DNA from: Pyrofollis japonicus
GTDB taxonomy: Archaea > Thermoproteota > Thermoprotei_A > Sulfolobales > Pyrodictiaceae
Length of the DNA stretch: 64,000 nt
NCBI RefSeq assembly: GCF_033097485.1
Contig: NZ_AP028634.1
Location: 496,001 to 560,000, forward strand
Reading direction: 5' to 3'
The position numbers and the translations under genes were made by a program. This document shows, piece by piece, positions 37,233 to 64,000 of this stretch (within the stretch, counting starts at the first letter, position 1; each line of letters opens with the position of its first letter). The notes below the pieces were generated by a model. It searched no databases. It was given only the letters and a program-made list of their open reading frames with translations, and was not told where the DNA came from.

Positions 37233-37595
37233 CTATGCCTCCTGCTCCTTTACGCCCATTTTCTGGAGCAGTGTCTTAAGATAGTTTATCGTTGATTGGT
37301 CGAGCTCTATCTCGCCGCGCTCGAGGGCCTCGTTGAGCCAGTCTTGTAGCTCACGGCTACCCGTGAACCCGTACGCTATGTATGCCTTAGCTATGCCGTC
37401 ATGTTGCTCTGCTAGTTTGATCTTATCCTCGAGTTCTTTAATTGTCTCGCCTTCAACGTAGAACACGAGAGCAGAAGGCTTCCCTACATCGTATATCTCG
37501 AAGCCAAGGCCCTCTAGGTATTGCTTCAGCTCGCTCCTCTTAGGCTCAGAGCGGTACTCTCCTATCACGAGGAAGAAGCCAGTCATAAACGCCAT
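37233..37595 (-). CDS. NapD-like maturation chaperone (tentative)
   Basis: This small protein of 120 residues follows the NapG/NapH-like genes. Its order of elements (FFLVIGEY strand, helix KRSELKQYLEGLGFEIYDV, strand ALVFYVEGE, helix IKELEDKIKLAEQHDGIAKAYIAYGF) is the ferredoxin-like fold of NapD, the cytoplasmic chaperone that binds the NapA Tat signal. Homology is weak, so the call rests on fold pattern and context. The extra 30-residue helical C-terminus is not typical of NapD. The ATG overlaps the stop of the NapH-like gene by one base. Confidence 0.5.
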   Translation of the reverse strand: MAFMTGFFLVIGEYRSEPKRSELKQYLEGLGFEIYDVGKPSALVFYVEGETIKELEDKIKLAEQHDGIAKAYIAYGFTGSRELQDWLNEALERGEIELDQSTINYLKTLLQKMGVKEQEA

Positions 37596-38602
37596 TACTT
37601 CTCCTCCTCGCGTACTCCTTTATTCTCCTTACCCTTTAGATTACTTGGCCCCCTTATTTTCGGTGGCGGAGGTGTAGGCCTCTTAGCGCTAGGGGATGCC
37701 ACGCTGAAGCTTAGAACTCCATAGGGGCAAGCCTCTACGCATCTAGCGCAGTGGAAGCACCTATGGTCCCTAATGTCTCTGCCTTTCTCGATGTACTCGT
37801 TGAGGATATCAATGCTCATCGGGCATACCATGCTGCATAGGTTGCAGCGGACGCACTTCTCTGGCTTAGAGATCTTTATCACGAACGGGCTATACTTGTT
37901 CGTTATGAATCCATAGAGGTTGCCTATGGGGCAGACGAAGCGACACCAGAACCTCTTTATCCCAAACACGTACTCGGCTATAATGTTCACTATTAATGCG
38001 AACCCAGTTATAGTTGACCACGCCATCACTAGACCCATGGTGGCTCCGGGGATGTTGTAGAGCACGTTCACTAGGAACTCGCCTAGTTTTGTGGCGCCTG
38101 CTACTGGAGAGTATGTTGTGAAGAATGGTCTTCCAAGCATTATCGAGAGCAACAAGTATATTATCATCATGATTGGCGGCACTATTTTCTCCGCCTTAGT
38201 GGTCTTGTGGGGCCTTTGGTATAGTGGTGCGTTGAGTCTGTTCAGTTTGCGCTCGAAGAGGCTGAAGAGAAGATCCATTGGACAGACCCAGCCGCAGAAG
38301 AATCTTCCAAGGATGCTGTAAATTGTGAAGACAACGAGTACAGCTATCACTGATTCAAGTGTCGGGCTATGTGTCGCAGCGGCTTGCTCGAGCCAGGCAA
38401 AGGGATCCATTAATGGTATTGTTTTGAGAATTCTGCTAGAAGCCAGGGAGCCCATGAGGATGCTGTAGGAGATTAGCGCCTGTATAGAGAATAGCACAAG
38501 TATTGTTAGCTGTAATAGTCTTCTCGCAACAGTGTATTTGCCGCGACGCGGTGTGCCAAGTATTATCCGGCGCAGCCTCCTGGACCAAGCACCGCTAGGC
38601 AC
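37595..38602 (-). CDS. napH: NapH-like membrane polyferredoxin
   Basis: This is a membrane iron-sulfur protein of the NapH/CcoG-like group, thought to take electrons from quinol. Four to five hydrophobic helices carry the two CxxxCP motifs (FCGWVCPMDLL and FWCRFVCPIGNLYG), and the C-terminal part has two [4Fe-4S] ferredoxin sites (CVRCNLCSMVCP and CFHCARCVEACP). GTG 38602 follows GAGGGGTGA at good spacing; GTG 38611 is possible. The start overlaps the NapG-like stop, and the NapD-like gene follows directly, giving G-H-D order. Confidence 0.82.
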   Translation of the reverse strand: MPSGAWSRRLRRIILGTPRRGKYTVARRLLQLTILVLFSIQALISYSILMGSLASSRILKTIPLMDPFAWLEQAAATHSPTLESVIAVLVVFTIYSILGRFFCGWVCPMDLLFSLFERKLNRLNAPLYQRPHKTTKAEKIVPPIMMIIYLLLSIMLGRPFFTTYSPVAGATKLGEFLVNVLYNIPGATMGLVMAWSTITGFALIVNIIAEYVFGIKRFWCRFVCPIGNLYGFITNKYSPFVIKISKPEKCVRCNLCSMVCPMSIDILNEYIEKGRDIRDHRCFHCARCVEACPYGVLSFSVASPSAKRPTPPPPKIRGPSNLKGKENKGVREEEK

Positions 38603-39599
38603 TCTTTTCACCCCTCTTAGTGCTCGTCGTAGCTGAGGCGCCTAGCTCGGTCTGTATCTTTTCCTCCGTGTAGCCCCGCACATTCTGGATATAGTCGGTG
38701 TTTATCTGAGACCGCATCACGGCTGCTGCCGGGTCCTTGCGCTCAGTCTCCAAAATCAGTTTAAGGTACTCTTCGTAGCTCATACCTGTATTCTTGTAGT
38801 TCTTGGTGCGCTCCTCGTATACCTCCTTCGGCAACACGTGGATTGCTGCACCATTTATCGGGCAAGCAGGGACACAGAGACCACAGCCCTTGCACCTATC
38901 TGGCCGCACTTTGGTATGGACACCCCACTCGTTGAACGTGAACTCGAAGACCTCGCTGCCGAAGGGGCATGCCTTGGCACAGCTCTTGCAGTCGCCGCTG
39001 TTCCACGCCCAGCAAAGATCTGGGTCGATAAGCGCTATACCCATTTGTACATCTCTCTTCGGTATCTCTGCAAGCGCACCCGTCGGGCATACAACGGTGC
39101 ACTCCATGCAAAGAGTACACGGGTAGAGCCACTGGCGGTCAACAATAGGAGTGCCAAGCTTCTTGTGCCCCGCGCTGAAGTCTGCAAGCCTTATCGCATT
39201 ATACCCCATGTAGTTGCACGCCGAGTAGCAGAGCCCGCACCTGATACAGCGCGAATAGAAGTCCTTGGTAGCACCTGGTGGGAGAAGGGGGAATGTGTCC
39301 TCCCATACGGGCTTGGTATAGGCCATTGGTTTGTCGGGCAAGAGAGGATTGGCTACAAGCTTTTTGCCGTCTTTCTCCACGACGAGGCCAACAGCCTCAT
39401 AGTACTGTAGGCGGTCCTTGTCGTTAGTTATGTCGAAGAACTCGTAGTAAATACGTCTATCTTCTTCGTCTTCGGCAACACTTGTTGTGCCTAGCATGCG
39501 GAGGAATGGTGAAGCAGCAGCGGCAGCGCCAATAACTATGCCGGTCTTTATGAATTCCCTCCTGGTTATACCTCCCCGTCTACGCTCAGCATCGCTCAA
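38595..39599 (-). CDS. napG: NapG-like Tat-exported ferredoxin with four [4Fe-4S] sites
   Basis: A Tat signal (TRREFIKTGIVIGAAAAASP) marks it for export. Four cluster motifs follow: CIRCGLCYSAC, CTLCMECTVVCP, CWAWNSGDCKSCAKACP and CKGCGLCVPACP, the NapG pattern. NapG and NapH together can feed menaquinol electrons to periplasmic nitrate reductase. TTG 39599 follows GGTGTGACT. The reductase gene lies 275 bases upstream in the same direction. Confidence 0.85.
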   Translation of the reverse strand: MSDAERRRGGITRREFIKTGIVIGAAAAASPFLRMLGTTSVAEDEEDRRIYYEFFDITNDKDRLQYYEAVGLVVEKDGKKLVANPLLPDKPMAYTKPVWEDTFPLLPPGATKDFYSRCIRCGLCYSACNYMGYNAIRLADFSAGHKKLGTPIVDRQWLYPCTLCMECTVVCPTGALAEIPKRDVQMGIALIDPDLCWAWNSGDCKSCAKACPFGSEVFEFTFNEWGVHTKVRPDRCKGCGLCVPACPINGAAIHVLPKEVYEERTKNYKNTGMSYEEYLKLILETERKDPAAAVMRSQINTDYIQNVRGYTEEKIQTELGASATTSTKRGEKSA

Positions 39600-39874
39600 G
39601 AGGAGTCACACCTTACCAAGCTTCTTCTCGTTTCAAAGACTTTCAAAAAATTATTGAATGACCCGTGAATAAGTTAGGGATGAATGCAGCCCTTTCTACG
39701 TTCTAGCCCGCTAGTGTTCGGGACGCTACTCTTGGAGAACAGATAAACACTATGACACGTGTACACGGAATCAATAATTACTACGGTGAATGGCCGAGAA
39801 AATGATAGTTATAAACTAGGTCCGGATTATGTAAGGTAAAAACACTGTGTGGGGTAGATGAGCTATTTGGTTGG
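39600..39874. promoter_or_regulatory. Spacer between reductase and NapGHD genes, likely promoter
   Basis: This AT-rich spacer on the path from the reductase gene to napG contains overlapping palindromes ACACGTGT (39755-39762) and GTGTACAC (39759-39766). On the minus strand it also has the AT-rich stretch CAATAATTTTTTG near 39645, a possible promoter element for the NapGHD-like genes. No regulator site is recognised with certainty. Confidence 0.35.
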
Positions 39875-42800
39875 TTAGAACACCTTTATGTTGTACTTCG
39901 GCTTGGCTGTCTGTACGCCTGTCAAGCACTTCTCCTTCTCGCCGCTTGGCGGTATCTCGTCTGGCCTGGCTTTTCTGACTGTTGCTGCGCATGTCTTGAA
40001 GTCTGGCTGGAAGAAGTATGGCTGTACGTCGTAGTTGTCCAGCGTTAGCGCGTTTACCAGCTTGTCCTCGTCGTACCATGGTATGAACATGTAGTCTCTT
40101 CTCGGCCCGCCTAGAGCGGTCTTCGGGTTCAGTATCTTTGCTCTTACTGTTATCTTGCCGCGTGGGCTCTCAACTACTACCCAGTCGCCCTCGTTTATGC
40201 CTAGCTTATCGGCTACTTCTTTGTGTATCTCGACGTATGCTTCTGGCTTTACTCTTCTAAGCTCTGGTACACGGCAAGTCATTGTACCGCTGTGCCAGTG
40301 CTCTACTACACGGCCAGTCGTTATCACCATTGGGTAGCCCTTAGCGTCTCTCACTACTAGCTCCTCTCCCGTTTCCTTGATCTTGTACTTTAGCGTGAAG
40401 CCTGGTGCCTCGGCGGGTGCTAGGGCTATCTGGAATATCGCCTCAACGTCGCCGAAGTTGGATTGTAGTGCCTCGCCCCATGTCTTCGTTGCTAGTACTT
40501 GCAGGCCTTTCTCCGGGTCACCGCTGGCGGGTAGGCCGGTGTACTTCTTAACTACCTTGAATGGTCCCTTTGGCGCCTCGAATACTGATATCTTGCCCTG
40601 GAACACTGCATCAGCGTCTAGCTGCTCGTACGCGATTATTACCTCCTTGTTGATCTTCACTTCGCCAGTGTTGTGGTCCATGGTTACCGGTAGCCATGGC
40701 CTCGCCCAGATGGTCATTCTGCCAGTAGGCTTTGCGTAGAAGAGCACGTACCAGTTGTCTGGCATCTTCTTCGATTTCTTCCACTCAACGTCGTCTATCT
40801 CCTCTACTAGGTTCTTCAGCACCCACTTCATGAGCACTGGGTTGTGGCTTAGCTTGCCGAGCCACTTCTTCTTGTGTATCGGGTGCACTATGTTCTCGTC
40901 GAGGCTCTTCACGTATTTCTCTATTTCTTCGGGGCTGTTCATCTTCTTTACATCGTTGTATATCTTCTTTATCACGTCTGGGTCAGGCATTAGCGGGTCG
41001 AATGGATAGGCGTACCTACTCGCGGACTCGAAGTAGTCGTACCTCTTCTTGACACTCGGGTTAGTGGCGTACTGTTCTGGCCACGGCCAGCGGAAGCCGT
41101 TGATCAAGCTCCTGAAGAGTTCGCGCTTCACGTAGCTGAAGTCATAGTACGTGTTCTTTGACAGGCTTAGTATGTCGCGGTCCCATAGCCTATTCATGAA
41201 CTCTTCGTGCCACTTCTTGTCATTGATGCTCTTCTCGACGACGTACTGTACCCATGTCTTGTTCTCGGCCTTGGCGGCCTTCACCACGTCCTCTGGGAAG
41301 AAGCCGCTAACAATGCCCTTTGGTACTAGGCCGCGGTTCTCCCACTCGGTGCCGAGCATTGCGAAGATTACTGCATCGCTTACAGCCTCACCCGGTGGCT
41401 TGATGGTGTACCTTGCAACGCTGTACCTCCTCTCGCTGCAGCCGTACTTGAACTCCTTCTCGCCCCAAGCAGCTGCTGGCAACACTAGGTCTGCCAGGTC
41501 AGTGGTACGTGTTGGATAGATGTCGCTCACAACTATGAACGGGAACGCCGGGTCATCGTCGTGAGGCTTAGCCATGCCTACCCTGAACTTGTAGAGGTTC
41601 GGCAAGCTGTGACCTGGGTTAGTCTCGGCAATCCACACGACCTTTAGCTGACCAGCACCGACGCGGCGGAACATCTCGATTACGTGTGGGCCTGGCACTG
41701 GGTGCACGTAGACCTTCTTCACTTCCTGCTCTATCACGTTGTCGGGGTAACCGCGCTCCTTGAGGTACTGTCTGGTCAGGTTCTTCCAGATGTTCTCTAC
41801 TTCCTGCCTCGCAGCAGCATTGGCTATCAGCCTACCATATGGTAGGACGTGGGCCAGACCGCCCTGGTCACGGATGCCGCCACAAGCGTTTGGCTGGCCG
41901 GTGAGGCTGAAGCTACCAGCGCCCCACTTGCCTATCTGGCCGGTGAGGGCTAGGAAGTTGATTATGCCGTTGATTGCGTGTACTCCCTGTATCTTCTGGT
42001 TGATGCCCATTGTCCAGAATACTAGTAGCCTGCCCTTTGCCATCCACTTCGCGGCAAGTCTTAGTGCTTCAACCTGGTCTATCTCGACGAAGGGGTCTTT
42101 GCCCTTTAGGTTTACCTTGTCTTCACTCAGTTCTCCCTTCTTTATAAGTTCCTCGGCAGTCTTCCTGTTGATTAGCGGCTTCTCGTCACCGAAGAGGATC
42201 TTCGCCATTATCTCGGGCTTGTATAGCTCGAGGAACTTGAGGTATAGTGCGAAGCCACGCCACCAGTCCTTCTCAATCTCGTCCTCGCTCTTGTACTCCT
42301 TACCTATGCTTGGGTACATCTTGTAGTTGGCTGCGTTGCTTGCAGTGGTACCCATATCCCATATCTTGTTAAGCGGGTCAGGTAGCTTGTTGTACTTCGT
42401 GTTATAGTCTTTGAGAGCCCATGTCTTAGCCGTGTTCGTCGGTATCGCGAAGTCTGCATGCCTCTTTAGCCACTTGAGGTCGATGTATTCCCAGTTGCAC
42501 TGGACCTTGCCCTCAGCAACGTCTATGACCTTACACTTGTCCAGCTCGAATGCCACTATGTGGGCTAGTGTGTGCATTAGTGCTACGTCCATACTCCAGC
42601 GTATTGGGAGCCATAGGTCTGCCTTTGTACCGCTTCTGGTCTTTCTTGGGTCTGCGAGGATTATCTTTGCGTTGGGGTTAGCATCCTTGACTGCGGCTAT
42701 GCGTCCAAATACTATTGGGTGTGCTTCTGCAGTGTTAGTACCGATTAGTAGGAATGTGTCAGCATATGTTCCCGGTTCATCCCTGTGCTTCCTTGCCTCC

Positions 42801-43711
42801 TTGAGGCCGCTCTTGAGCGCTATCTCGAGCGGCACATCTATGTGGTCGTAGCTTACTTCGGGCTCGTCAGCACCGTAGCTGGTTATGAAGCCGCCGACAG
42901 CGCTGACCATACACATTCGCGGGTTGCCGTCAAGGTTGTTGGTGTGTATACCTCCCTTGGTTAGCTTGTTTATGACGTAGCTCTCTTCTGTGCCCAGCTG
43001 GCCGCTACCGTAGTAGGCGAAGCTGTGTGGCCCGTACTTCTTCAGCGCGTACTCGAAGACGGCTGTGAAGAACTTTACCGCAGTATCCCAGTCAACTTCA
43101 ACGTAGTTCTTCTTTATGTGCTCAACTGTTGTCAGTGATGCATCATAGTTCTTGCTGACCTTTCTGTTCTTTACGCGTGGCGCCTCCTTAATCTCCTCGG
43201 GTGTTATAGGTGGCCTATTCTTGCCGGGTATAATCCAGTCCTTGATTACGAGAGGCTTCTTCAGCCTCTCCTTAAGTGCCTGTGTGTTGCCTCCGTGACC
43301 TATTGCTTTGTGAATGTAGAATGCCTTGGTACAAAGTGCGCCATAGTTTACGGGGTATGTTGGTATACCGGTTAGGGCAACAATGTCCTTAGCTAGCCCG
43401 GTCTGAGGGTCTGCTATGATCTGTGCTTGTACACCGCAACCGGTTCCACAGAACCTGCATGGGCCTATTGGAACTGTTGTGAGCTTTGGCTTGGCTGTGG
43501 TTGTTGGCTGAGTTGTGGTCGTCTGTCCGGGGGTAATCGTAGTAGTGATTGTCTCGGTCTTCTTTATGAGAGAAGTTATGGTCTTCGGCACTGCCTTAAT
43601 GGTCTTTTCTTTCTCGGTGAACCCGAAGTAGGAGGCAACACCGCCAACTATTGCTAGTGCGGCTCCAAGGCCTATTGCCTTCAAGATATCTCTACGAGTT
43701 TCATCCGGCAA
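39875..43711 (-). CDS. napA: Tat-exported molybdopterin reductase, Nap/Nas-type nitrate reductase
   Basis: This is a bis-MGD molybdoenzyme. A Tat signal (ETRRDILKAIGLGAALAI) and a Thr-rich linker (residues 43-80) precede a [4Fe-4S] site at Cys85, Cys88, Cys92 and Cys127, with the conserved Lys after the fourth Cys. The likely Mo ligand is Cys267 in NPRMCMVSAVGGFITSYGAD, the Nap/Nas form (NarG uses Asp and a His cluster ligand). At 1278 residues it is about 450 longer than bacterial NapA, with insertions through the middle. Nitrate as substrate is inference from this block and from NapG/H/D neighbours; polysulfide or other oxyanions are alternatives. The start is TTG 43711 behind GAGGTT. Confidence 0.82.
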   Translation of the reverse strand: MPDETRRDILKAIGLGAALAIVGGVASYFGFTEKEKTIKAVPKTITSLIKKTETITTTITPGQTTTTQPTTTAKPKLTTVPIGPCRFCGTGCGVQAQIIADPQTGLAKDIVALTGIPTYPVNYGALCTKAFYIHKAIGHGGNTQALKERLKKPLVIKDWIIPGKNRPPITPEEIKEAPRVKNRKVSKNYDASLTTVEHIKKNYVEVDWDTAVKFFTAVFEYALKKYGPHSFAYYGSGQLGTEESYVINKLTKGGIHTNNLDGNPRMCMVSAVGGFITSYGADEPEVSYDHIDVPLEIALKSGLKEARKHRDEPGTYADTFLLIGTNTAEAHPIVFGRIAAVKDANPNAKIILADPRKTRSGTKADLWLPIRWSMDVALMHTLAHIVAFELDKCKVIDVAEGKVQCNWEYIDLKWLKRHADFAIPTNTAKTWALKDYNTKYNKLPDPLNKIWDMGTTASNAANYKMYPSIGKEYKSEDEIEKDWWRGFALYLKFLELYKPEIMAKILFGDEKPLINRKTAEELIKKGELSEDKVNLKGKDPFVEIDQVEALRLAAKWMAKGRLLVFWTMGINQKIQGVHAINGIINFLALTGQIGKWGAGSFSLTGQPNACGGIRDQGGLAHVLPYGRLIANAAARQEVENIWKNLTRQYLKERGYPDNVIEQEVKKVYVHPVPGPHVIEMFRRVGAGQLKVVWIAETNPGHSLPNLYKFRVGMAKPHDDDPAFPFIVVSDIYPTRTTDLADLVLPAAAWGEKEFKYGCSERRYSVARYTIKPPGEAVSDAVIFAMLGTEWENRGLVPKGIVSGFFPEDVVKAAKAENKTWVQYVVEKSINDKKWHEEFMNRLWDRDILSLSKNTYYDFSYVKRELFRSLINGFRWPWPEQYATNPSVKKRYDYFESASRYAYPFDPLMPDPDVIKKIYNDVKKMNSPEEIEKYVKSLDENIVHPIHKKKWLGKLSHNPVLMKWVLKNLVEEIDDVEWKKSKKMPDNWYVLFYAKPTGRMTIWARPWLPVTMDHNTGEVKINKEVIIAYEQLDADAVFQGKISVFEAPKGPFKVVKKYTGLPASGDPEKGLQVLATKTWGEALQSNFGDVEAIFQIALAPAEAPGFTLKYKIKETGEELVVRDAKGYPMVITTGRVVEHWHSGTMTCRVPELRRVKPEAYVEIHKEVADKLGINEGDWVVVESPRGKITVRAKILNPKTALGGPRRDYMFIPWYDEDKLVNALTLDNYDVQPYFFQPDFKTCAATVRKARPDEIPPSGEKEKCLTGVQTAKPKYNIKVF

Positions 43712-43873
43712 GGATATAACCTCGCAAAATGACTTGTTTTCTACACCTTAACGCCGTAGGGGATTCTTTTGCTGACGGCCTATATTAGCGAGTTCCCTAA
43801 GGATTTCGGAGGCGAAACTAACACTGTATAGAGGATAGACTAGGCTTATGCGGCCTAGATGGTGGTGGGGTAG

Positions 43874-44827
43874 GTGCCTAAGACGACCCGGTATCAGGAT
43901 AAAGAGTTCATTATTGGCCCCGGTCTAGACGAGCTATTAGAACCTGATACGAACATCATACTCCTCGACCCAGACTTTGCGGAAATGTATGGCGACTACA
44001 TATTCCTTGGATACAATACATATAGTGAGCAAATTCACGCAGACAGAGCTGACCTCGTAGGACTCTACACGGCATATATTCTTCTTTCAAAGGGTAAGAG
44101 CGTCGTCGTCTGCGGGAAGTCACCTATCTTTTGTACACCAGTATTGGCCGCATACATTCTAATAGAGAAGGACGTTGAGCCGCTTAGCGCCCTTAAGGAG
44201 GCGTGGAAAACACTACAGCCGCTCTACGAGAGTACTTCGACCAGGGTATCAGCTCAAATATATTCGGCACTTAGCGCTCTCCGCAGAGTAGTAAATATCC
44301 TAGGCAAGGAGGTCTTCACTACAATATTCTCGCTTGCAAGTAACTATGAGTATGGCTACGGAAGACTAAGCTACGGCGAAACAATAACGTGGACTAATAA
44401 CCTAAGGGGAAGCGATGACGCGATAAGCGCTGCAGCGTTGAGCTTTCTAGCACTTAGCCTACACGGAGCACCAGCCGAAATACTCCGTTACCGGTTAGAA
44501 GCAGTAGGCGAATCCTCGCTCCTATCCCTGCTAGGCCCTAGAGCTGAAAGAATACTCGCTATACTCAGGAGACTAGCCTCAGAGAACCTTGACGAAGACT
44601 CCGCGCTTCTAAGGCTCGTAATAAGCCTAGGCCCGGGCACGGAGTCAGTGAACCATGTCAACCTAGATGATAGTAAGCTAATAGTCTACTGCACTGGTGA
44701 AGAACCAACAAAGGAGTGTATGACTAAGGTGAGCGAGGCCGACAAAGTCCTCCAAAAAGGAATCATACGCATAGCCTCTATCAAGGTTGTGCCAGGAAAA
44801 CCAGAGCCAATACTAATCAGTGCCTAG
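43874..44827 (+). CDS. Hypothetical protein, possible degenerate dual-specificity-phosphatase fold
   Basis: This 317-residue protein is divergent from the molybdopterin reductase. Residues 75-110 (SKGKSVVVCGKSPIFCTPVLAAYILIEKD) resemble the P-loop strand-loop-helix of tyrosine/dual-specificity phosphatases. The His-Cys-x5-Arg signature is broken, because no Arg is at the expected site. The rest is largely helical, with leucine/alanine-rich repeats at about 180-240. GTG 43874 follows GGTGGTGGGG. It is convergent with the next Fe-S gene, stops touching. The function is not known; position suggests a role in assembly or control of the nitrate system. Confidence 0.6.
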   Translation: MPKTTRYQDKEFIIGPGLDELLEPDTNIILLDPDFAEMYGDYIFLGYNTYSEQIHADRADLVGLYTAYILLSKGKSVVVCGKSPIFCTPVLAAYILIEKDVEPLSALKEAWKTLQPLYESTSTRVSAQIYSALSALRRVVNILGKEVFTTIFSLASNYEYGYGRLSYGETITWTNNLRGSDDAISAAALSFLALSLHGAPAEILRYRLEAVGESSLLSLLGPRAERILAILRRLASENLDEDSALLRLVISLGPGTESVNHVNLDDSKLIVYCTGEEPTKECMTKVSEADKVLQKGIIRIASIKVVPGKPEPILISA

Positions 44828-45813: not shown

Positions 45814-45980
45814 TCTCGTCCTCCTCCAACATTATGCACAAGAACCCGTAGCGTTCATGCCTCATTCTATCTCAATGTATGCAAGAGCGTTCCAGGCGTA
45901 GTACTGGTCTAGTTCTAGAAGAAATAGAGGTATAGAAAAACACTATTTAGTTACGACGAATTTGCAGTGTTAGTCGTCTA

Positions 45981-47767: not shown

Positions 47768-47774
47768 TTGCTCA

Positions 47775-53300: not shown

Positions 53301-53393
53301 CAGGTAAGTGCTGGAGCCGGAGAAGGAGCCTTATAAAGACATGTACGAGGATGTAAGGGAGGAAGGCTAAAATAACTATGGGTTTGACGCGTC

Positions 53394-53801: not shown

Positions 53802-53805
53802 GCTG

Positions 53806-54846: not shown

Positions 54847-54932
54847 GCCAGCTCACTCCTCTCTAACCGATACCCAGCGAGTACGATTGCCGAGGCTCGG
54901 AAAAACACGTATACGCCGAAAATACTGGGGAG

Positions 54933-55586
54933 CTAGCCCTTGGCCTCAACAAGGCGCCCGTCAACTATCTCGTAAACCTTGCTGGCGGCCGCTATTAGCT
55001 CTTCCTCGCCCTTAGGAGTAGCTGCCACAATGCTTCCGCCTAGACCAACGTACTCGCGCAGAATACTGATGAGCACTGAGCCAGCAGAGCGATCAAGACC
55101 CGTCAATGGTTCGTCGAGCAAGAGTAGCGGCGGATTACCTAGCATAGCTCTCGCTATATCTGTCCTCTTTCGCCACCCAAAACTTAGCCACGCAGCCAGC
55201 TGCCCTAGTCTCTCGTGGAGCCCGAGCCTCCTAGCCACTGGATCACGAGCGGCATTGTATCCTTCCAGCCCGGCGAGCGAGGAATAAAAGCTTAGATTCT
55301 CGCGGACGGTGAGCTCGTCGTAGAGAAAGCTCCAGTGCATTACTACTCCTCTACACCTCTTAGCCCTAAGGCTCCAGGGCTCATATCCGCAAATTCTTAC
55401 GGTGCCCCGGGTGGGGCGAAGAAGCCCTGCTAATATCTTCAAAAACGTCGTCTTGCCACTACCATTAGGGCCAACTATTACTACGAATTCGCCCTTGCCC
55501 ACATCGAAGTCTATGCCTTGTAGCACCCACATCTTCGGCCTATATGCCTTCCAGAGCCCCCGAACCTCTACCAGCTTCTCACTCAT
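54933..55586 (-). CDS. ccmA: ABC transporter ATP-binding protein CcmA
   Basis: This is the ATPase that powers release of holo-CcmE. Walker A is GPNGSGKTT (39-47), the signature region is WLSFGWRKRTDIARAML (a degenerate LSGGQ, as often in CcmA), and Walker B is LLLLDEPLTGLD. The length of 217 is typical. The ATG overlaps the ccmF stop as ATGA. Confidence 0.9.
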   Translation of the reverse strand: MSEKLVEVRGLWKAYRPKMWVLQGIDFDVGKGEFVVIVGPNGSGKTTFLKILAGLLRPTRGTVRICGYEPWSLRAKRCRGVVMHWSFLYDELTVRENLSFYSSLAGLEGYNAARDPVARRLGLHERLGQLAAWLSFGWRKRTDIARAMLGNPPLLLLDEPLTGLDRSAGSVLISILREYVGLGGSIVAATPKGEEELIAAASKVYEIVDGRLVEAKG

Positions 55587-58500
55587 CGTCCTCCACGCCT
55601 CAGCGCCAACGCCATGCCAGCCAGGTAGAGCGCTGATATAGCCATGAGCACGGGGCCTAGCCAGACAAGCCTTGCACCGGGCACTATCTTTACTTTTACT
55701 GTTAACCCGTCTCTCAGTATTGTCGAGTTCCTGGGGTCGTACTTTGACGCCAACAAGTATACGTCGACGAGGCTTCCTTCGAGCATTGATTGTGCTTGCT
55801 GTGGGTTGCCCAGGTTGCCGAGGAGATCGGATTGATAACCCCCTATCATTACGGCGGCTAGTGCTAGTCGCTCCGGCGGTGTCAGGTTCTTGAAGGCTTC
55901 GTGCAGGTAGTAAATGAGTAGTTCGTGGTACGCTATTTGGCTGCCGTAGAGGAAGCTATTGATCATTGGCGGCTCTAATACTATGTATACTTCGTCTATT
56001 CCCTCGCCTGGATGAATAACCTTTGGGACTAGGCCATGTATACCCTGTATCTCTCCGTAGGCCTCGAACCTTATCCGCTCCTTAACAAGCTTCTCTGACC
56101 CGCCCCTAGATATCTTAAACACGACATCAAGCCACGCCGTTTCGGGCACGAGCTTCGGAGCCTTCACGTAGGCTTCGCACCCATTGGCTGCAAACGATGC
56201 ACCCGAGTGGATCGTTTTTAGGCAGTCGGGCGAGAATGCGAGCTTTAGCACGTTTTCAGGCTCCTTTAGTAAGTCGTAGAGCCCGGTCTCCTTAATAGCA
56301 TCAATGACCTTCTTGTAGCTCGGCGTGGACTCAGCAATATAGTACGTTATTACACCGCTCGGTATCTCTGCGGGAATGCTTGCTATCTTGGTGCCATTTA
56401 CCTCTAGTGTACCGCTCTGTGTATCAAGTATAGCCATCTTACCCCCAATAGTGTTGTTATACGTGTGTAGAGGCTCGCCTTTGCCACCAGTCAGTAATTG
56501 CTCCGATAGAATTGTTGCATTACTTATAATGAGCGTTATGTTGCCAATACTTATTCTGAGAGGCTCTGTAAAGCTAAATGCTAGGAGATCGTGAACTCCC
56601 AGTACGGCTGGCAAGAAGTTTGACACATTTCTCTCAAACACGGCTTTAAGCTCGGCCGCCTGTATCGGCATAAATAAGTAGAAGCTGCCATTGTCCTGGT
56701 TCAGCATTGGTCGAAGAGTAATATTGGTTAACTCGATCTCCACGGGCTCGTTCTGGGCTATGACGAGTGTCGTGTTTGTTGCAAAGTTTATGTACTTTAC
56801 AGTAGCCCTGCCTCTTGCAACAAACGTACCGGGTGCAGGAATTGTGCCTCTGAGTGCTAGCTTAAGTAGTGTCTTGGCAGTAGTGTTTGTCTCGTACATC
56901 TTCTTACCGTTCTCGTACTCTTGTATGAGCCGTGCAAAGTCTTGTGCAAGCGTAAACAGTGCGACTTGTCCATAATAGTAGCTCGCCGTGTGGTTAACGT
57001 ACCTGGTGTAGATGTCTACCTTCGAGTCGCTGATTCCGAAGCTGAATCCCTCGAAGGATAGCTTGAAGCCTCCGGGAAGCACTATTGTGTCTCCAGGCTT
57101 TATGTGGTACTCCTTCATATAGGACTCGTTGAACGCATATGTACCGCTAAGCAGCACACCTATTACCGTTATTGCGAGTCCGAGATGGAGTAGCGATAAG
57201 CCGCTGAAGCGATCCCTTAGGAGTATTAGTAGTCCTTTCTTCGCACGAATAACGATATAGGTTATTGTTGCCGCGGCGGCTGTGCCGGCCCATGGGAGCC
57301 CGAACAGCATCATTGCGTTGGTTGCATCAGGGCTTAGCGGCGCAATGTCAATCTTATCGGTGTAGCCGGCAGCTCCTAGTACAGCAGCTGTGGCGCCAAC
57401 GGTCACGAGGAGGGCGAAGTAGCCTCTCCAGCCAAGCCACTGGCCAAGGAACGCAGCAGGTATGGCGGCGAGCATGACTATGAGCAGCGGGTATAGGACT
57501 GGGTGGAAGAACTTTATCCCAGCACTCATCTGCGGCACGCTTGCACTCTTTCCGGCAACAGTCATGGATGCTGGTACTAGTAGGGTACTGTAGACAAAGA
57601 GGCTGGCAATTATCAGCGAGATCGCGGCCACTAATAACCCTACGCGATAGATTTCGAGGCTCCTCACGCTACGGACAAGCTCTCTCCATCCATCCTCAAC
57701 CTTCTTGTATAGCGCGAGACCGGCTAGTACGAGCCATGCATAGGCGGTTGCTAGCAGTATTAGTGCGCCGAGGCTTGGCGCCGCGAAGCTGTGTAGAGGG
57801 CTCAAGCCAGTACGCGTCACGTACATTGCCAGGAATACCGAGGAGGCTAGTAAGGCCTCGGAGGCCGGGGCAAGGCTAGGAGCAACAACGAGTAGGTGCG
57901 GCAGTATCGTCGCAGCGAGCCAGACCATTAGCTCGCTGGTCTCGACAGGGTCCCAGGCCCAGTATCCTCCCCAGCCGAATGTCTCGTAGCTCCAGTATCC
58001 GCCTAGTAGAATTCCCAGAGTCAGCAGTGCCCACCCTATCTCGAACAATATGTAGCCCTTCCTACGCATACCGGCGAGCAGCGCAGCAGAGGCCACTGCT
58101 AGCAAGGCGTAGCCGCTGAACGTTGACAAGGGGTGGGGGTAGAGCCACGGGCTCTTGAGTAGCGGGTTGAGGCCGGCGCCACTGACAGGCTTCTGTGGTA
58201 GGACAGTGAACGCGTCGTTGAGGAACGCGGCTGCGAGACCTATTACTGTTATCGATGCAAGCGCGGCTTGTAGCCAGCGAGACGTCTCGCTCCTCAACAA
58301 GTAGAGGCCGCCGAGGCTAGCTATCAGTGCGAATAGGAAGAGGCTCCCACCGCCGCCAGCCCAGGCGGCTGCAAACCTCATCCAGGTGGGTAGGCCTGGG
58401 CTAGTGTTCCAGAATACCTCGTGCAGCGTGAAGTCGAGGGTGACGAAGGGTATCCAGTATATGAGCCAGCCTATAGCAACTAATAGAAAACCGATACGTA

Positions 58501-58618
58501 GGTACTTGGCCGCATCTCTGCCGCGGACAATGGACTCATAGATGGCGTATAGGAGTACGAGCACAGCTATCAATGGGAGTATGCCGGTATAGTGTAACGG
58601 GCCTATATGGAAGCTCAC
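55583..58618 (-). CDS. ccmF: Heme lyase CcmF, large form
   Basis: CcmF attaches heme from CcmE to CXXCH motifs of apocytochromes. The WWD-type domain WGGYWAWDPVETSE is at residues 216-229. Flanking His residues and about 14-15 membrane helices are visible. At 1011 residues it exceeds bacterial CcmF (about 650): residues 500-985 form a large extracytoplasmic region that ends in one last membrane helix. That region may take over the role of CcmH/CcmI, which were not found. GTG 58618 follows GAGGTGA. Confidence 0.92.
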   Translation of the reverse strand: MSFHIGPLHYTGILPLIAVLVLLYAIYESIVRGRDAAKYLRIGFLLVAIGWLIYWIPFVTLDFTLHEVFWNTSPGLPTWMRFAAAWAGGGGSLFLFALIASLGGLYLLRSETSRWLQAALASITVIGLAAAFLNDAFTVLPQKPVSGAGLNPLLKSPWLYPHPLSTFSGYALLAVASAALLAGMRRKGYILFEIGWALLTLGILLGGYWSYETFGWGGYWAWDPVETSELMVWLAATILPHLLVVAPSLAPASEALLASSVFLAMYVTRTGLSPLHSFAAPSLGALILLATAYAWLVLAGLALYKKVEDGWRELVRSVRSLEIYRVGLLVAAISLIIASLFVYSTLLVPASMTVAGKSASVPQMSAGIKFFHPVLYPLLIVMLAAIPAAFLGQWLGWRGYFALLVTVGATAAVLGAAGYTDKIDIAPLSPDATNAMMLFGLPWAGTAAAATITYIVIRAKKGLLILLRDRFSGLSLLHLGLAITVIGVLLSGTYAFNESYMKEYHIKPGDTIVLPGGFKLSFEGFSFGISDSKVDIYTRYVNHTASYYYGQVALFTLAQDFARLIQEYENGKKMYETNTTAKTLLKLALRGTIPAPGTFVARGRATVKYINFATNTTLVIAQNEPVEIELTNITLRPMLNQDNGSFYLFMPIQAAELKAVFERNVSNFLPAVLGVHDLLAFSFTEPLRISIGNITLIISNATILSEQLLTGGKGEPLHTYNNTIGGKMAILDTQSGTLEVNGTKIASIPAEIPSGVITYYIAESTPSYKKVIDAIKETGLYDLLKEPENVLKLAFSPDCLKTIHSGASFAANGCEAYVKAPKLVPETAWLDVVFKISRGGSEKLVKERIRFEAYGEIQGIHGLVPKVIHPGEGIDEVYIVLEPPMINSFLYGSQIAYHELLIYYLHEAFKNLTPPERLALAAVMIGGYQSDLLGNLGNPQQAQSMLEGSLVDVYLLASKYDPRNSTILRDGLTVKVKIVPGARLVWLGPVLMAISALYLAGMALALRRGGR

Positions 58619-58652
58619 GTTGCTTCACCTCGTTCCCGCAAGCATTTATTCC

Positions 58653-60224
58653 TTATACGAATCCAAGGCTGTAGAGGAGCAGGTAAACACCTGATGCGAG
58701 GAGAACTCCTCCGCCGAGCAGGTCAAGAACCTTCTTACGCTCCATTATCCTGTTCACTATTCCGGCCCCAAGCCTAGAGACGGCGTAAAGGACTATTGCT
58801 AGTGGAATGCTTACGCCGAGAGCAAAGCTCGCGGCAACAAGCACGCCAGACAATCCTGCACCACTACCCGCTACGAGAAGCAATGAACCGACGACAAGCG
58901 GCAGGCTACACTGTACTGCTAGGAAGCCGTAGGCCGCGCAGAACCCGATCACTCCTCCTCTCCGAAGACTAAACATGGCATCAAGCTCTACTGGTACCCC
59001 GAACATGCTTGCAGCGCCGGCGGCAATTATTGCGAGAGCTATCACGGGTAGCAATACTTGCTGAACACCTGCTGCAAGTGCTCCCGCAACAACGAAGAGC
59101 AGGCCAATTGCGATAACGCCCGCGAATGATGCGAGGCCGCACGCGCCACAAGTTGCCGCGCTGAGCCTTCTGCCACTGACACTCATTGTAGCGGCTTGTG
59201 TGACGAGAAGCGGCAGGACGCAGGGAGAGAATGCAGCGACAAAGCCTGCAACAAAAGCAGCTATTGCACCAACAATGCTTGTAGCAGTCACGCTCTGCCT
59301 TGAAGGCCTACTAGTTATGGGGGTCGCCTCGCCCTCAACACTGGTAGTATTTGCGCTGATAAGCTGTGCGGCTTTCGAGAGGTTAAGGCTCGGAGGCGTC
59401 CGGTTTAGAAGCACATGCGAAATGTATGAGAGGAGATACGAGGTTCGGTCAAGCTCGTAGGCAGAAATATCAACGTATTTCCTCATAGACAATATTGCGT
59501 CCTGGAGGCCGCTGTAGTCTCCATAGTATTCCTCGAGGGTCTTGTTCTGGGAAATAGCTTGTAGTATAGTGTTTGCGAGGAAGTCGTTCATAGTCTTCCT
59601 GTTCTGTAGCCACTGTCTCAGGGAAGCTGCGTCAAGGCCCGGTATTATCCCGTGGCATGCAGAGCATTTGTTGTTGAAAACGTTGAGCCCCTCCTTTGCA
59701 AGGTTCTCGGGGGTGAGCTGCTTAAGCCCAGCAGCCCCTATAGCCCATGAAAGCATGGCGCTAGTAACGTTATCAGCCACGAACGCGCCTATGTGGCGTG
59801 CAACGACCTTCCCGTTGACAAATACGATGAAGGTTGGTGTGTCGAAGACACTGTATCTCCGGAACACTGGGTCTGTTTGAGCACCGTACATTATGTGGTA
59901 AAAGGAGACCGGGAGACTGTTGCTCATCTCCTCGAGCCTAGCCCAGTAGGGATACATTCTCTTACATACAGGGCACGTAGGCGACTCAAACATGACTGCT
60001 ACCGGCTTCTTCGAAGAGCTTATCAGCTTGTCGAAGGCAGCAGCGCTGGGAATAGAATTGCCCTCTACCTCCAAGTACACCTTCGAGACGCTGTTCATGT
60101 AAGCTACTAGCCCGAACACAATCACGCCTGCAAGCAGTACAAGGCCTATCAGTATTAAACCGCTCTTCTTCTGCCTCTGGAAAGCCTTTAAGTCAAGCCT
60201 CATTGATTTCCGCCGAAACGGCAA
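58653..60224 (-). CDS. Thioredoxin - cytochrome c - CcdA/DsbD fusion protein
   Basis: Three modules sit in one chain. Numbering is from the first in-frame TTG at 60257. A membrane anchor (33-54) is followed by a thioredoxin domain with active site CPVC (95-98) and cis-Pro in DTPTFIVF. Next is a mono-heme cytochrome domain with CSACH (198-202). Last is a CcdA/DsbD-like six-helix domain (from about 325) with its redox cysteines in SPCVLPLL (346) and VQCSLPLVVG. It probably carries reductant across the membrane to reduce apocytochrome cysteines, combining the CcdA and CcmG jobs. TTG 60224 is preferred because GGAGGAGGA precedes it. It heads the ccmF-A-C-E-B operon. Confidence 0.9.
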   Translation of the reverse strand: MPFRRKSMRLDLKAFQRQKKSGLILIGLVLLAGVIVFGLVAYMNSVSKVYLEVEGNSIPSAAAFDKLISSSKKPVAVMFESPTCPVCKRMYPYWARLEEMSNSLPVSFYHIMYGAQTDPVFRRYSVFDTPTFIVFVNGKVVARHIGAFVADNVTSAMLSWAIGAAGLKQLTPENLAKEGLNVFNNKCSACHGIIPGLDAASLRQWLQNRKTMNDFLANTILQAISQNKTLEEYYGDYSGLQDAILSMRKYVDISAYELDRTSYLLSYISHVLLNRTPPSLNLSKAAQLISANTTSVEGEATPITSRPSRQSVTATSIVGAIAAFVAGFVAAFSPCVLPLLVTQAATMSVSGRRLSAATCGACGLASFAGVIAIGLLFVVAGALAAGVQQVLLPVIALAIIAAGAASMFGVPVELDAMFSLRRGGVIGFCAAYGFLAVQCSLPLVVGSLLLVAGSGAGLSGVLVAASFALGVSIPLAIVLYAVSRLGAGIVNRIMERKKVLDLLGGGVLLASGVYLLLYSLGFV

Positions 60225-60425
60225 GTAATGAATCCTCCTCCTCTCTTTCGTGCCCAATGGTTATGGCTCGTTGCCTAAATCCTGCTTATTACTGTGTCCC
60301 CGAAATATGTTTTGACACGATAGAAACCTAATGGTGTAAACCTTGTTGCATAATCCGCACTGACTCCAGGTAACAAAAGAGAATAGGGGGAGAGGTTATG
60401 CCGCAGAGCTACTCTCGAGTGAAGG

Positions 60426-61274
60426 CTACTTTGTTTCGGCTAAAATAACTGGCTTCTTTTCCTCACTCTTTTCCTCAGCCTTGTTCTTTACGCCGAAGTG
60501 GCTCTCAACAAGGTCACGGTACACGTTCTTGTTCATTACTAGGCCGACGAGATAATGTGGCAGCTCATGCCTCAGAAACGCCTCAATCACTTTAGCCTCC
60601 GCCTTGCGTAGTAGCTCTGCTAGCGTCGATACTGAGAGGCCGAGCTTTGCAGCAAGCTCTTTTAGGCTGGTGCGTCGCGGGAACTGGTAGTACCCCATTA
60701 TGTAGGCATATAGTATTGCAAGTTCTTGCTTCTGCGTCAACATGTAGTCGTAGCCGTTAACCTCATGCGATAACAGTATCTTGCATCCCTTTTGCTTTAG
60801 CTCGGAGATTACCTTGCTCTTTGCAACCATGAGTTCGCAGAGAAGCCCGTATGGCGTAATAATAGTGGTCTTTACCATTGATCCAGGCATCGGGCGAAGC
60901 AGTGGGCACTGCCTGCCCTCCCTTATGCATGGACACTTATCCTTCTCTATGATTATCCGGTATACCGTGTTAAACTTGTTGCTAAAGATCTTCTGGAACG
61001 CTATGCCTTCCTCCTGTTTTAGCTTGTTCTCAAAGGCTTCGAGGAGGCCGCTAGCACCGCTTACGCGTATCCAGACCTCGGTAAAGCCCTCCTCGGTGTA
61101 GTGGTATGCACGGAGCACCCGACCAGCGATACCGGAGGTCATTCCGAGAATAGTGTCAAAGACGTTTCCATCATTGTCCTGCGGGGCGTACCTCATAGCC
61201 TTCGCTAGTACGTTTTGGAGTGGGCAGTTCTGCGTATTATGGAGGCAATATACGACTAGGGGTTCATTGGTCAA
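60426..61274 (-). CDS. Bat-type HTH regulator with NarO-like cysteine motif
   Basis: The C-terminal part (about residues 178-240: LTQKQELAILYAYIMGYYQF, then TSLKELAAKLGLSVSTLAELLRKAEAKV) is the bacterio-opsin-activator helix-turn-helix. Cysteines 17, 114, 116 and 123 give the pattern C-Xn-C-X-C-X6-C, close to C-Xn-C-X-C-X7-C of haloarchaeal NarO, the activator of denitrification genes. Three more cysteines are at 10, 146 and 164. It probably binds an iron-sulfur cluster and senses oxygen or redox state. TTG 61274 follows a perfect GAGGTGAT. It lies just upstream of the ccm operon on the same strand; an 18-bp palindrome is in its promoter. Confidence 0.85.
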   Translation of the reverse strand: MTNEPLVVYCLHNTQNCPLQNVLAKAMRYAPQDNDGNVFDTILGMTSGIAGRVLRAYHYTEEGFTEVWIRVSGASGLLEAFENKLKQEEGIAFQKIFSNKFNTVYRIIIEKDKCPCIREGRQCPLLRPMPGSMVKTTIITPYGLLCELMVAKSKVISELKQKGCKILLSHEVNGYDYMLTQKQELAILYAYIMGYYQFPRRTSLKELAAKLGLSVSTLAELLRKAEAKVIEAFLRHELPHYLVGLVMNKNVYRDLVESHFGVKNKAEEKSEEKKPVILAETK

Positions 61275-61501: not shown

Positions 61502-62974
61502 TCATTTTCGATTATTCGCATATTTGTAGTAAAATAGCACTAGGGCAACTACCACAGCGACGCCTAGAACGATTCCCCAGTCCACGCTCGTGGCGCGTTT
61601 CCCGGAGTCATTGTATTCCCGCCTTATTCCTATACCGGCGTAGCTATTATTCAGCAACGAAGTACACGAATGTTTTTGCTTCTTAACGTTTTTCGCCCTG
61701 CTTGTCCTGGCTAGGCTTTTTTCCTCGTAGCTTACACTGGTCGTTGTTCTAATAGTAGTAGTCGTAGTGCTTTCTCCTTGCCTTCCTAAGGCAACTATGT
61801 GCTTGGCCTGTGTCTGTCCGATTAGCGATGAGAGGCTATACTGGTCTGAATACAACAGTATTCTCCCCATCTCCTTCTCTAACGCCTTAGTACAGTTCAT
61901 CTCGTCGGCAATGCCCCTCATCCCCTCTAGTAGGTCAAGTATAGAGGCGTCCTTAGCCCCCTCATCATAGAGCAGTTTTAGCGCCTCCGTGTAGATGTCC
62001 TTATTGCACGCTAGGAGTGATGCAGCTCTCAGCGAGGCGTGTAGCTTAAGCCACACGTAGTACGGGTTAAGCGTCTTCGCTGCCTCCTCGTAGCTGAGTG
62101 ATAGCTTGTAAAGTGTGGCATTGCACTGCCTTAGGGCAAGCAGGGAGAGAAGCTCGGCAGCACCCTCAGTGAGACTAGGATCCCCCCTGAGCTGGCCTTT
62201 CCCTATCCAGCTATGGACAACCTCGTGCGAAACTATGTGAACTGCGGCACTCCTATCATTACCCGGTTTTATGTAGACGACGCCCCCGAGGCTATACCCT
62301 GTCCCAGTAAGTACTAAGGGGTGCTCGCTCGGAGGCACCAATACAAGTACTACGGGGCTTCGATTACTAGGCCCGAAAACCTCGCTCATGTACTCCTTTG
62401 CACAGATAAGTGCATTAATAATGTCGCTCCCTATTGCCTTGCCCAGTGGCTCAACGACAAAAACACCGCCAAGACTCTCGACACCATACTTGTTCTTCGA
62501 CGCTATTACCACACCGTCATAGATGTAGTCCGAAACGAGGCCTTGGAGAGGCAGGATATAGGAGCCGTTAGCACCATATCCTCTCCTATCCATAGAACTA
62601 AGCACAGTATAGTTCTCTGGCACCTCTATCCCAATCAATATACGATCGCTTGTCCCCGGACTCAGTGTCGCTATTAGATAAGTCAGCCTCGGGCAGACAT
62701 TGTCAACAACATAGTAGAGGGGAAGCACAATAAGGTCTTGGGAAACAGCACGGGTCTCCCTAAAATAGGGATTAGGGCTCAATATCCCCTTGCATCGAAA
62801 CGAGTTACCATATATTGACCCGTTTATAGAGACAAGCCACGAGTGATTGGCACGCGAGAACTCCAAGAAGAGGTAGTTAGAAGGCTTACCACCCTCGCTC
62901 AGCGAAGAGGACGCCAGCACAAATAATGAGGCTAAGGCCGCTAAGATCAACGTTATTCGTGTGAGTCGCGACAC
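61502..62974 (-). CDS. Secreted membrane-anchored gluzincin-type metalloprotease
   Basis: A signal peptide (residues 1-27) and a C-terminal membrane helix (WGIVLGVAVVVALVLFYYKY) bracket an extracellular domain. The zinc motif HEVVH is at 250-254 (HIVSHEVVHSWIGKG), followed by LTEGAAE with a Glu at 270 and another at 274, the M1/M61-like order. A Thr-rich linker (about 395-412, STTTTTIRTTTS) leads to the anchor. The length of 490 is shorter than M1 aminopeptidases. It may trim extracellular peptides or process surface proteins. GTG 62974 follows AGGGGAT. Confidence 0.78.
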   Translation of the reverse strand: MSRLTRITLILAALASLFVLASSSLSEGGKPSNYLFLEFSRANHSWLVSINGSIYGNSFRCKGILSPNPYFRETRAVSQDLIVLPLYYVVDNVCPRLTYLIATLSPGTSDRILIGIEVPENYTVLSSMDRRGYGANGSYILPLQGLVSDYIYDGVVIASKNKYGVESLGGVFVVEPLGKAIGSDIINALICAKEYMSEVFGPSNRSPVVLVLVPPSEHPLVLTGTGYSLGGVVYIKPGNDRSAAVHIVSHEVVHSWIGKGQLRGDPSLTEGAAELLSLLALRQCNATLYKLSLSYEEAAKTLNPYYVWLKLHASLRAASLLACNKDIYTEALKLLYDEGAKDASILDLLEGMRGIADEMNCTKALEKEMGRILLYSDQYSLSSLIGQTQAKHIVALGRQGESTTTTTIRTTTSVSYEEKSLARTSRAKNVKKQKHSCTSLLNNSYAGIGIRREYNDSGKRATSVDWGIVLGVAVVVALVLFYYKYANNRK

Positions 62975-63127
62975 TCTGCTATCCCCTTATAGATCCTTGT
63001 CTGAGCCATGGCTTGTCTAAGAAAGTGGTCCTCCGTATCACTTAGAACTAGCTTGAGAAGAAGAGGGGTTATGAATTGTAAAAAAGGGTATTTGGCCTTG
63101 CTTTCAAAACGGTGCTTGTTTGCCTCG

Positions 63128-64000
63128 TTACTTCCTCTTATACATCACTGCGACTACTGCCGCTGCTAGCGCTATCACGATCGCTATTACTCCTAGCGTG
63201 AACGCTGCCTTGGCCATGCCTTCTACGCTGCTCCTTAGGTCCTTGACCTCCTTGCTTAGCTCTGTTGCCTTCTCGTGTGCCGCGCTCGCGGTCTCCTTGG
63301 CCTCCTCTGCTGCCTTCTTAGCCTCCTCGGCGGAGGAGGCTGCCTTCTGTACCTGTGCTTGTAGTGCTTGTATCTTGTTGAGTGTCTGCTCTATGTCGGC
63401 GAGCATCTTCTGTATGGCCTCCTTCTGTGGCCCGGCTGGTAGCTGCTCTGCTAGCTGCTTGATCTCTGCTAGTAGCTGCTGTACGCTCTCCTTTACCTCT
63501 GCTATGCTCTCCTGGGTCTGCATTGCGCTCTGGCTGAAGTCTGTCTCAAGCTTGCTTAGCTTCTCAGCTAGTGCTGGCACCTGTGCTTGTAGCGCCTCTA
63601 GCTGTGCTTGTAGTGCCTGCAGCTGCTGCTGTAGCTGTGCGATCTGTGTCGCTAGGCCTGGCTGATATGGTGCTCCGCCTGCCTGGCCCTTGAGGGCAGC
63701 TATCTCCATCTTTAGCGCCTTAACCTTTAGCGCCATGTCGAAGTACTCTACCATCTTCATTAGCGCGTCCATTGTATCTACTATACCGAACCAGTGAGCG
63801 TAGTCTGGGCCCATCATGAAGGCGCCGTTTCTCCATCTCCTACCCTGGTGGTGCCAGATGTAGTACCACTGGAACTCCATGTACTCGTCTATGATGTTCT
63901 TCTTGTCTTGTATGCCGAGCTTCCAGGCCAGCTGTAGTATGTTGAACGCGAAGTGTGCCACTATGTCGTAGTCTATCATGTTCTGGTCAGCTGTCCTGAA
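63128..64000 (-). CDS. C-terminal part of HAO-like multiheme cytochrome with coiled-coil membrane tail (5' end outside window)
   Basis: The frame is open through the window edge (residues FRTADQN precede the first Met at 63979), so the heme-bearing N-terminal part lies outside. The visible start, EYMEFQWYYIWHHQGRRWRN followed by GAFMMGPDYAHWFG, matches the C-terminal block of octaheme hydroxylamine-oxidoreductase-family proteins. After it comes a long coiled coil (about 85-255, Gln/Ala/Leu rich), then a membrane helix (AFTLGVIAIVIALAAAVVAVMY). HAO relatives in Epsilonproteobacteria reduce nitrite; others oxidise hydroxylamine or hydrazine. No CXXCH is visible in the part shown, so the heme count cannot be checked. 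Confidence 0.72.
   Translation of the reverse strand, partial: FRTADQNMIDYDIVAHFAFNILQLAWKLGIQDKKNIIDEYMEFQWYYIWHHQGRRWRNGAFMMGPDYAHWFGIVDTMDALMKMVEYFDMALKVKALKMEIAALKGQAGGAPYQPGLATQIAQLQQQLQALQAQLEALQAQVPALAEKLSKLETDFSQSAMQTQESIAEVKESVQQLLAEIKQLAEQLPAGPQKEAIQKMLADIEQTLNKIQALQAQVQKAASSAEEAKKAAEEAKETASAAHEKATELSKEVKDLRSSVEGMAKAAFTLGVIAIVIALAAAVVAVMYKRK

Follow-up and report, generated by a model that had tools for sequence, protein, structure and literature searches.

The last 27 kb of a 64-kb stretch of the Pyrofollis japonicus genome hold two loci lying side by side, and not one dedicated nitrate island. The first is a nitrate reductase (Nap) cluster, unit A (37233-46745); the second is a cytochrome locus ending in a gene for an octaheme cytochrome of the HAO family, unit B (47057-65773, past the end of the window). 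The window is the whole stretch analyzed, 64,000 nucleotides or bases 496001-560000 of the closed, single-contig genome (2,005,174 bp) of strain YC29T of this hyperthermophilic deep-sea archaeon. The portion treated runs from 37233 to 64000 (~27 kb), with fetched flanking sequence up to window-equivalent position 65773 and beyond. In the explanation offered here, the case for which is evenly balanced when it is taken as a whole, Nap, for which neither NapB nor NapC is recognized in the window, would make nitrite; unit B would be a general cytochrome locus joined to a trio of octaheme, regulator and peptidase, and the octaheme of this separate locus would reduce nitrite in species with Nap.

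The gene content and the conserved synteny are far beyond chance. The genes are real and mostly known already from sister genera, and both the Nap and the octaheme locus have been published in relatives. What is new is the linkage of a Reeler-domain cytochrome to Nap (as far as a literature search showed), an octaheme clade apart from the crystallized Ignicoccus hospitalis protein IhOCC, and the decay of the octaheme with its neighbors in Pyrodictium occultum.

Two loci side by side

Genes were called from open reading frames with Pfam, NCBIfam and TIGRFAM family profiles and with scans for heme motifs, transmembrane (TM) segments and twin-arginine (RR) motifs. Synteny was compared across 20 regions out of ten relatives. 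A screen for octahemes, Nap and nitric oxide reductase (NOR) covered nine genomes: P. japonicus (G000), Pyrodictium delaneyi Su06 (G011), Pyrodictium abyssi AV2 (G014), P. occultum PL19 (G005), Pyrolobus fumarii 1A (G007), a same-genus genome (G004, 99% complete), G013 (88% complete), I. hospitalis (G035, so taken because the 4qo5 protein of I. hospitalis is the product of one of its genes) and G025, which we take to be I. islandicus. The genome G054 is a draft. No tRNA and no Rfam feature was found within the 64-kb window. The two AlphaFold models were poor (predicted local distance difference test scores of 62 and 59), and the HAO-family and NapA entries that headed the fold-search results had low template-modeling scores; no structural claim is made.

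Unit A consists of genes for a NapD-like protein, NapH, NapG, NapA, a 317-aa protein, a Cys-rich protein and a monoheme Reeler-domain cytochrome. Unit B contains a tetraheme/DsrO-like/NrfD/monoheme module, the Ccm genes, and the trio of HTH_10 regulator, HExxH peptidase and octaheme. All seven unit A genes occur together in P. delaneyi and G013, six in P. fumarii, and partial sets elsewhere. The first-pass annotation of this DNA had read the 27 kb as a compact nitrate/nitrite respiration island, and had held that homologues scattered without the reductase would break the unit. Such scattering is what the synteny comparison found: a single functional island is ruled out, because units A and B lie apart in P. 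delaneyi and G013, and P. abyssi and G004 have unit B but no napA. In P. delaneyi 640 kb separate the two units: NrfD and the octaheme map to 0.484 Mb and 0.497 Mb, and napA to 1.135 Mb. These three genes are dispersed in G013, and in Ignicoccus they are likewise separated.

The trio stays linked when the rest relocates. It adjoins napA in P. fumarii, where the octaheme is 2.3 kb from napA, and in G018, and it adjoins the Ccm genes in G013; the regulator and peptidase are not alongside the Ignicoccus octaheme. The regulator travels with the octaheme, and not with Nap.

The Nap cluster

The features of unit A are as follows.

37233-37595, minus strand: NapD-like protein, 120 aa, probable NapA chaperone of the twin-arginine translocation (Tat) type (PF03927 weak, below cut-off)
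37595-38611, minus strand: NapH, four TM segments, two 4Fe-4S motifs (NF007013 158 bits, cut-off 234; TIGR02163 156 bits)
38595-39599, minus strand: NapG, Tat-exported polyferredoxin with an RR motif (NF007012 103 bits, cut-off 269)
39875-43711, minus strand: NapA, 1278 aa, with a Tat signal (NapA the best model)
43874-44827, plus strand: 317-aa protein of no Pfam family (beside napA in G002, P. fumarii, P. delaneyi, G013, G015, G016 and G025)
44824-45813, minus strand: 329-aa Cys-rich protein, probable Fe-S protein (very weak Fe-S profile matches; beside napA in G002, P. delaneyi, G013 and G016)
45981-46745, minus strand: Reeler-domain monoheme cytochrome c (PF02014 27 bits; one CXXCH; N- and C-terminal TM segments)

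The reductase had been described as a Tat-exported enzyme of Nap/Nas type. The Tat signal and the Nap assignment hold, and the term "Nas-type" does not fit, because the best models are NapA ones (367 bits against a cut-off of 904 for NF010055, and 352 against 931 for TIGR01706); these scores are still the best among all families. By its sequence the enzyme is NapA-like, and not a standard NapA. Its 4Fe-4S motif (C85/C88/C92/C127) and its Mo ligand C267, followed by M268, are invariant in 11 orthologues. NapA orthologues are 68-90% identical, with 78% in P. delaneyi and 70% in I. hospitalis. The closest PDB entry is Desulfovibrio desulfuricans NapA (2jio, E 3e-113), relative to which there are ~430 extra residues, located by our reading of the alignment mostly at 392-547, 889-983 and 1007-1124. 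These insertions hold many residues that are invariant across the clade, and the largest NapA named by a recent review has 924 aa. Among 398 genomes sampled across the phylum, NapA matches at E <= 1e-100 were found in Pyrodictiaceae and Ignicoccus only, and one further contig scan with NapA as the query gave two metagenome-assembled genomes only.

Of the NapG/H/D-like partners proposed earlier, NapG and NapH are present as best models, both under the equivalog cut-offs, and NapH would by its sequence be a quinol dehydrogenase. The NapD-like protein is weakly backed by its profile (E 0.067 here and 0.004-0.005 in orthologues, below cut-off), with its position beside NapA/G/H kept in P. delaneyi, P. 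fumarii, G013, I. hospitalis and G054. NapB and NapC had gone unrecognized, and neither has a Pfam match among the window proteins, the whole genome not having been searched for either. The Reeler cytochrome had been missed. G002, P. delaneyi and P. fumarii have its gene next to napA, and the G013 gene looks like a truncated, heme-less remnant. The cytochrome is a candidate electron donor to NapA, replacing NapB; Ignicoccus monoheme cytochromes of this type have been modeled on the reelin-N fold by Kletzin et al. (PMC4429474). NapA would reduce nitrate to nitrite outside the cell, with electrons passing from quinol via NapH and NapG, and probably via the membrane-anchored Reeler-fold cytochrome.

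The closest known clusters are those of P. delaneyi (Pyrde_1154; Pdsh_02795, 02785-02770) and I. hospitalis (Igni1377-1380), which have orthologous NapA, NapG, NapH and NapD-like proteins and were published as Nap-like. However, the P. japonicus cluster adjoins the octaheme locus, and no Reeler gene was found beside the Ignicoccus cluster. The monomeric NapA of D. desulfuricans (napCMADGH), the closest solved structure, likewise works without NapB and is accompanied by NapG, NapH and NapD, but has 723 aa as opposed to 1278, and no NapC or NapM is recognized here, where a Reeler monoheme cytochrome is found instead. Two more molybdopterin oxidoreductases are encoded elsewhere in the P. japonicus genome (G000:C1:59509-60963 and 1924996-1926498), and are possibly counterparts of P. 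delaneyi enzymes that are raised on iron.

The octaheme trio and the cytochrome locus

The trio at the far end of unit B comprises the following genes.

60426-61274, minus strand: HTH_10 regulator with a Cys-rich N-terminal half, CxCx6C (PF04967 62.5 bits)
61502-62974, minus strand: HExxH metallopeptidase-like membrane protein (HExxH conserved; PF01433 weak)
63128-65773 (window-equivalent; L004:4129-6774), minus strand: octaheme HAO-family cytochrome, 881 aa (eight CXXCH; PF13447)

Only the C-terminal third of the octaheme gene (63128-64000) is inside the window; it runs 1.77 kb past the end, and all eight CXXCH motifs lie outside, in the fetched flank. The HAO-like cytochrome of the first-pass annotation is borne out as a member of that family (PF13447 75.3 bits, cut-off 21.9), with matches to PDB 4qo5, 6h5l and 1fgj, of which 4qo5 is the best (E 7e-75). 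The protein has a coiled coil and a C-terminal TM anchor. The HAO-like Asp-His pair, D412-H413, is invariant among orthologues. In a GPDY motif, the residue presumed to match the cross-linking Tyr that is conserved in oxidative HAO (clade III) is Phe in five of 15 orthologues and Tyr in the other 10, although the PDB alignments stop short of NeHAO Tyr467. If the equivalence holds, the Phe residues argue that the cross-link is not essential across the family, and an HAO-type Tyr cross-link is unlikely as a family trait. Reductive octahemes are held to be without it (PMC8940962).

IhOCC (Igni_0955, PDB 4qo5) is also an archaeal HAO-family octaheme. However, octahemes of the present type and IhOCC-like ones form two separate clades in a tree (support 100/100 and 97/96), and IhOCC is without the Asp-His pair and has Trp at the Tyr position. 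Orthology with IhOCC is ruled out, as the 4qo5 sequence comes from another I. hospitalis gene, a paralogue. P. delaneyi has a third octaheme type (L117:1340-3328), probably Pyrde_0784, with a very long tree branch and reported to be 60-fold higher on iron.

An octaheme of this clade is present in every one of the more complete genomes that have this NapA: P. japonicus, P. fumarii, P. delaneyi, G013, G025, I. hospitalis and, as a fragment, G054. The gene is intact in eight of the nine screened genomes, all but P. occultum, and each of the eight has Nap or a COX1-family protein that we interpret as a candidate NOR. P. occultum lacks both, and its octaheme is broken into four frames. The regulator, peptidase and thioredoxin-CcdA gene are also frameshifted in this region (G005:C1:438000-457500, 9783-17294 of L098); NrfD, DsrO, the tetraheme, CcmA, CcmB, CcmC, CcmE and CcmF read through. 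Since the octaheme is intact with Nap or a NOR candidate and broken without both, the pattern points to an N-oxide role.

A NarO-like regulator had been claimed, and an HTH_10 regulator is indeed present. Its Cys motif is partly conserved, and it adjoins the octaheme/peptidase pair in G004, P. fumarii, P. delaneyi, G013, P. abyssi and G018. The HExxH protein accompanies the octaheme gene in the compared Pyrodictiaceae regions. In P. japonicus and G004 the octaheme has as a neighbor a PAPS-reductase/ferredoxin-like gene of 656 aa (L004:6946-8916; window-equivalent 65945-67915), and two Ignicoccus genomes have distant homologues of that gene next to theirs.

The remainder of unit B, together with a further gene lying among its genes (50997-52562), is as follows.

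47057-47767, plus strand: membrane-anchored tetraheme cytochrome c (four CXXCH, TM segments at both ends; PF14522)
47775-48869, plus strand: DsrO/TtrB-like Tat-exported ferredoxin (NF045797 DsrO 190 bits, cut-off 200)
48862-50115, plus strand: NrfD/DsrP-like quinol-interacting membrane protein (PF03916 117 bits; NF045798 DsrP 229 bits, cut-off 350)
50163-50825, plus strand: monoheme cytochrome c with a C-terminal TM segment (PF00034 31.7 bits; one CXXCH)
50997-52562, plus strand: probable cytoplasmic Fe-S protein (Fer4 domains; among the compared regions kept in G004 only)
52611-60257, minus strand: Ccm genes (Pfam, NCBIfam CcmF/NrfE, motifs; synteny in G004, P. occultum, P. delaneyi and P. 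abyssi), namely
52611-53300, minus strand: CcmB
53394-53801, minus strand: CcmE, CxxxY type
53806-54846, minus strand: CcmC
54933-55586, minus strand: CcmA
55583-58618, minus strand: CcmF
58653-60257, minus strand: thioredoxin/CXXCH/CcdA fusion

The tetraheme-ferredoxin-NrfD-cytochrome c module is present at 47057-50825, as first described. The tetraheme of the window matches PF14522 and DmsE-like models and not the NapC family, the genome as a whole not having been searched for CycB/NapC-type proteins. Set against DsrMKJOP, NrfCD and Qrc modules, the ferredoxin and NrfD-like pair have DsrO and DsrP as their best families, yet both are under cut-off, and the module's orthologues in Ignicoccus bear the annotation polysulfide or sulfur reductase (PMC2614490, PMC4429474). 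The module is not nitrate-dedicated, because it is found without napA and is intact in P. occultum despite the decay of the octaheme. The maturation genes, previously taken for a full operon, are there as an archaeal variant, CcmABCEF with a thioredoxin-heme-CcdA fusion; no CcmH or CcmD was seen in the set. The fusion is a maturation protein that itself bears one heme motif. P. delaneyi Pyrde_0485-0496 is the same set of tetraheme/DsrO/NrfD/monoheme, Ccm, regulator, peptidase and octaheme genes, but lies 640 kb from Nap, with the gene order partly altered.

Proposed nitrite reduction and ammonia formation

NrfA had not been recognized, and PF02335 has no match in the P. japonicus genome or in eight relatives. 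The NIR_SIR (siroheme nitrite reductase), COX1 (heme-copper NOR), cytochrome d1 (NirS) and Cu-oxidase_3 (NirK) profiles have no match in the P. japonicus genome, and each nitrite reductase or NOR profile search gave matches in control genomes. Because none of these is found, the octaheme, perhaps with Hcp (PF03063, 616 bits, G000:C1:1679401-1681080), is the only recognizable candidate for conversion of nitrite to ammonium. In species with Nap, the octaheme would most likely act extracellularly, turning nitrite into hydroxylamine or ammonium with electrons possibly supplied by the tetraheme/NrfD module, and Hcp could convert any hydroxylamine to ammonium.

Nitrate ammonification by Nap and an octaheme is plausible by analogy with a bacterial precedent. 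The reverse hydroxylamine:ubiquinone reductase module of Nautilia profundicola (Nap, HaoA, Hcp) has the same combination of Nap, octaheme and Hcp without NrfA, and there takes nitrate to ammonium (PMC3701875). In contrast, no CycB/NapC-type tetraheme is recognized in the P. japonicus window (the genome was not searched), and the archaeal octaheme belongs to another clade. P. fumarii, in which we find the octaheme adjoining napA, forms ammonia from nitrate (PMC3156397), and the NOR-bearing P. delaneyi is reported to reach N2 in work cited in PMC5556600. The earlier proposal of nitrate ammonification from non-standard parts is thus retained in a weaker form, with the octaheme as the sole recognizable nitrite reducer, and without the NrfD and Ccm genes as a dedicated part.

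Several observations weigh against this reading. P. japonicus is reportedly fermentative, and we know of no report of nitrate respiration in it. The octaheme and NrfD module occur without napA in P. abyssi, G004 and G038. The Nap-or-NOR pattern comes from nine genomes with one negative and carries a draft-level risk of frameshift errors, and a single in-frame stop interrupts the beginning of the G004 octaheme match, in a part that probably precedes the true start. In P. delaneyi proteomics, Nap is the same on nitrate and iron and the unit B protein Pyrde_0485 is higher on iron; NOR is higher on nitrate, and the octaheme Pyrde_0496 was detected in both conditions (PMC8105010). I. hospitalis carries Nap and both octahemes, yet does not respire nitrate (PMC2614490).

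Some of these points would equally suit a doubtful but serious alternative, in which only unit A is nitrate-related, the octaheme, like the tetraheme/DsrO/NrfD module, belongs to general or sulfur/iron respiration, and their adjacency to Nap is due to chance. The three genomes with unit B and no napA, the NrfD module left intact in P. occultum although the octaheme decayed, the closeness to DsrO and DsrP, the sulfur-related names of the Ignicoccus orthologues, the rise of Pyrde_0485 on iron and the sulfur role proposed for other HAO-family proteins (PMC9213671) are all consistent with it. It accounts less well for an octaheme that adjoins napA in P. fumarii and G018, that is kept in all the more complete genomes with this NapA, and that has no other recognizable nitrite reductase beside it.

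It is unlikely that the octaheme is instead a detoxifying reductase of NO or hydroxylamine that protects cells producing or encountering NO and nitrite, and not an energy-conserving ammonifier. Its intact state in every screened genome with Nap or a NOR candidate and its loss in the one genome without both would fit, as would its linkage to a Cys-rich regulator in which a sensing Fe-S cluster could sit; but that pattern is drawn from nine genomes only, and the purification of the I. hospitalis orthologue from both soluble and membrane extracts (PMC4429474) is in keeping with a respiratory function. A long NapA that acts on another substrate, or as an electron sink, and not in nitrate respiration seems quite improbable. 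The orthologue in I. hospitalis, which does not respire nitrate, and the extra residues relative to the D. desulfuricans enzyme would favor it, but the NapA signature residues are invariant, nitrate respiration occurs in both P. fumarii and P. delaneyi, and nitrate reductase activity has been shown in P. delaneyi extracts.

Returning to Nap and the octaheme as successive reductases, a broader version can be put forward tentatively: Pyrodictiaceae and Ignicoccus may share an ammonification route without NapB, NapC and NrfA, consisting of a Reeler-fed, oversized NapA and a membrane-anchored octaheme of the non-IhOCC clade that reduces nitrite. If true, this shared route would explain ammonia formation by P. 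fumarii at growth temperatures >100 C. It would be a mistake to class the neighboring NrfD and Ccm genes with the nitrate genes. For the formation of ammonia from nitrate in hyperthermophilic archaea, the gene pattern points to the octaheme as a candidate nitrite reductase and to the Reeler cytochrome as a candidate donor.

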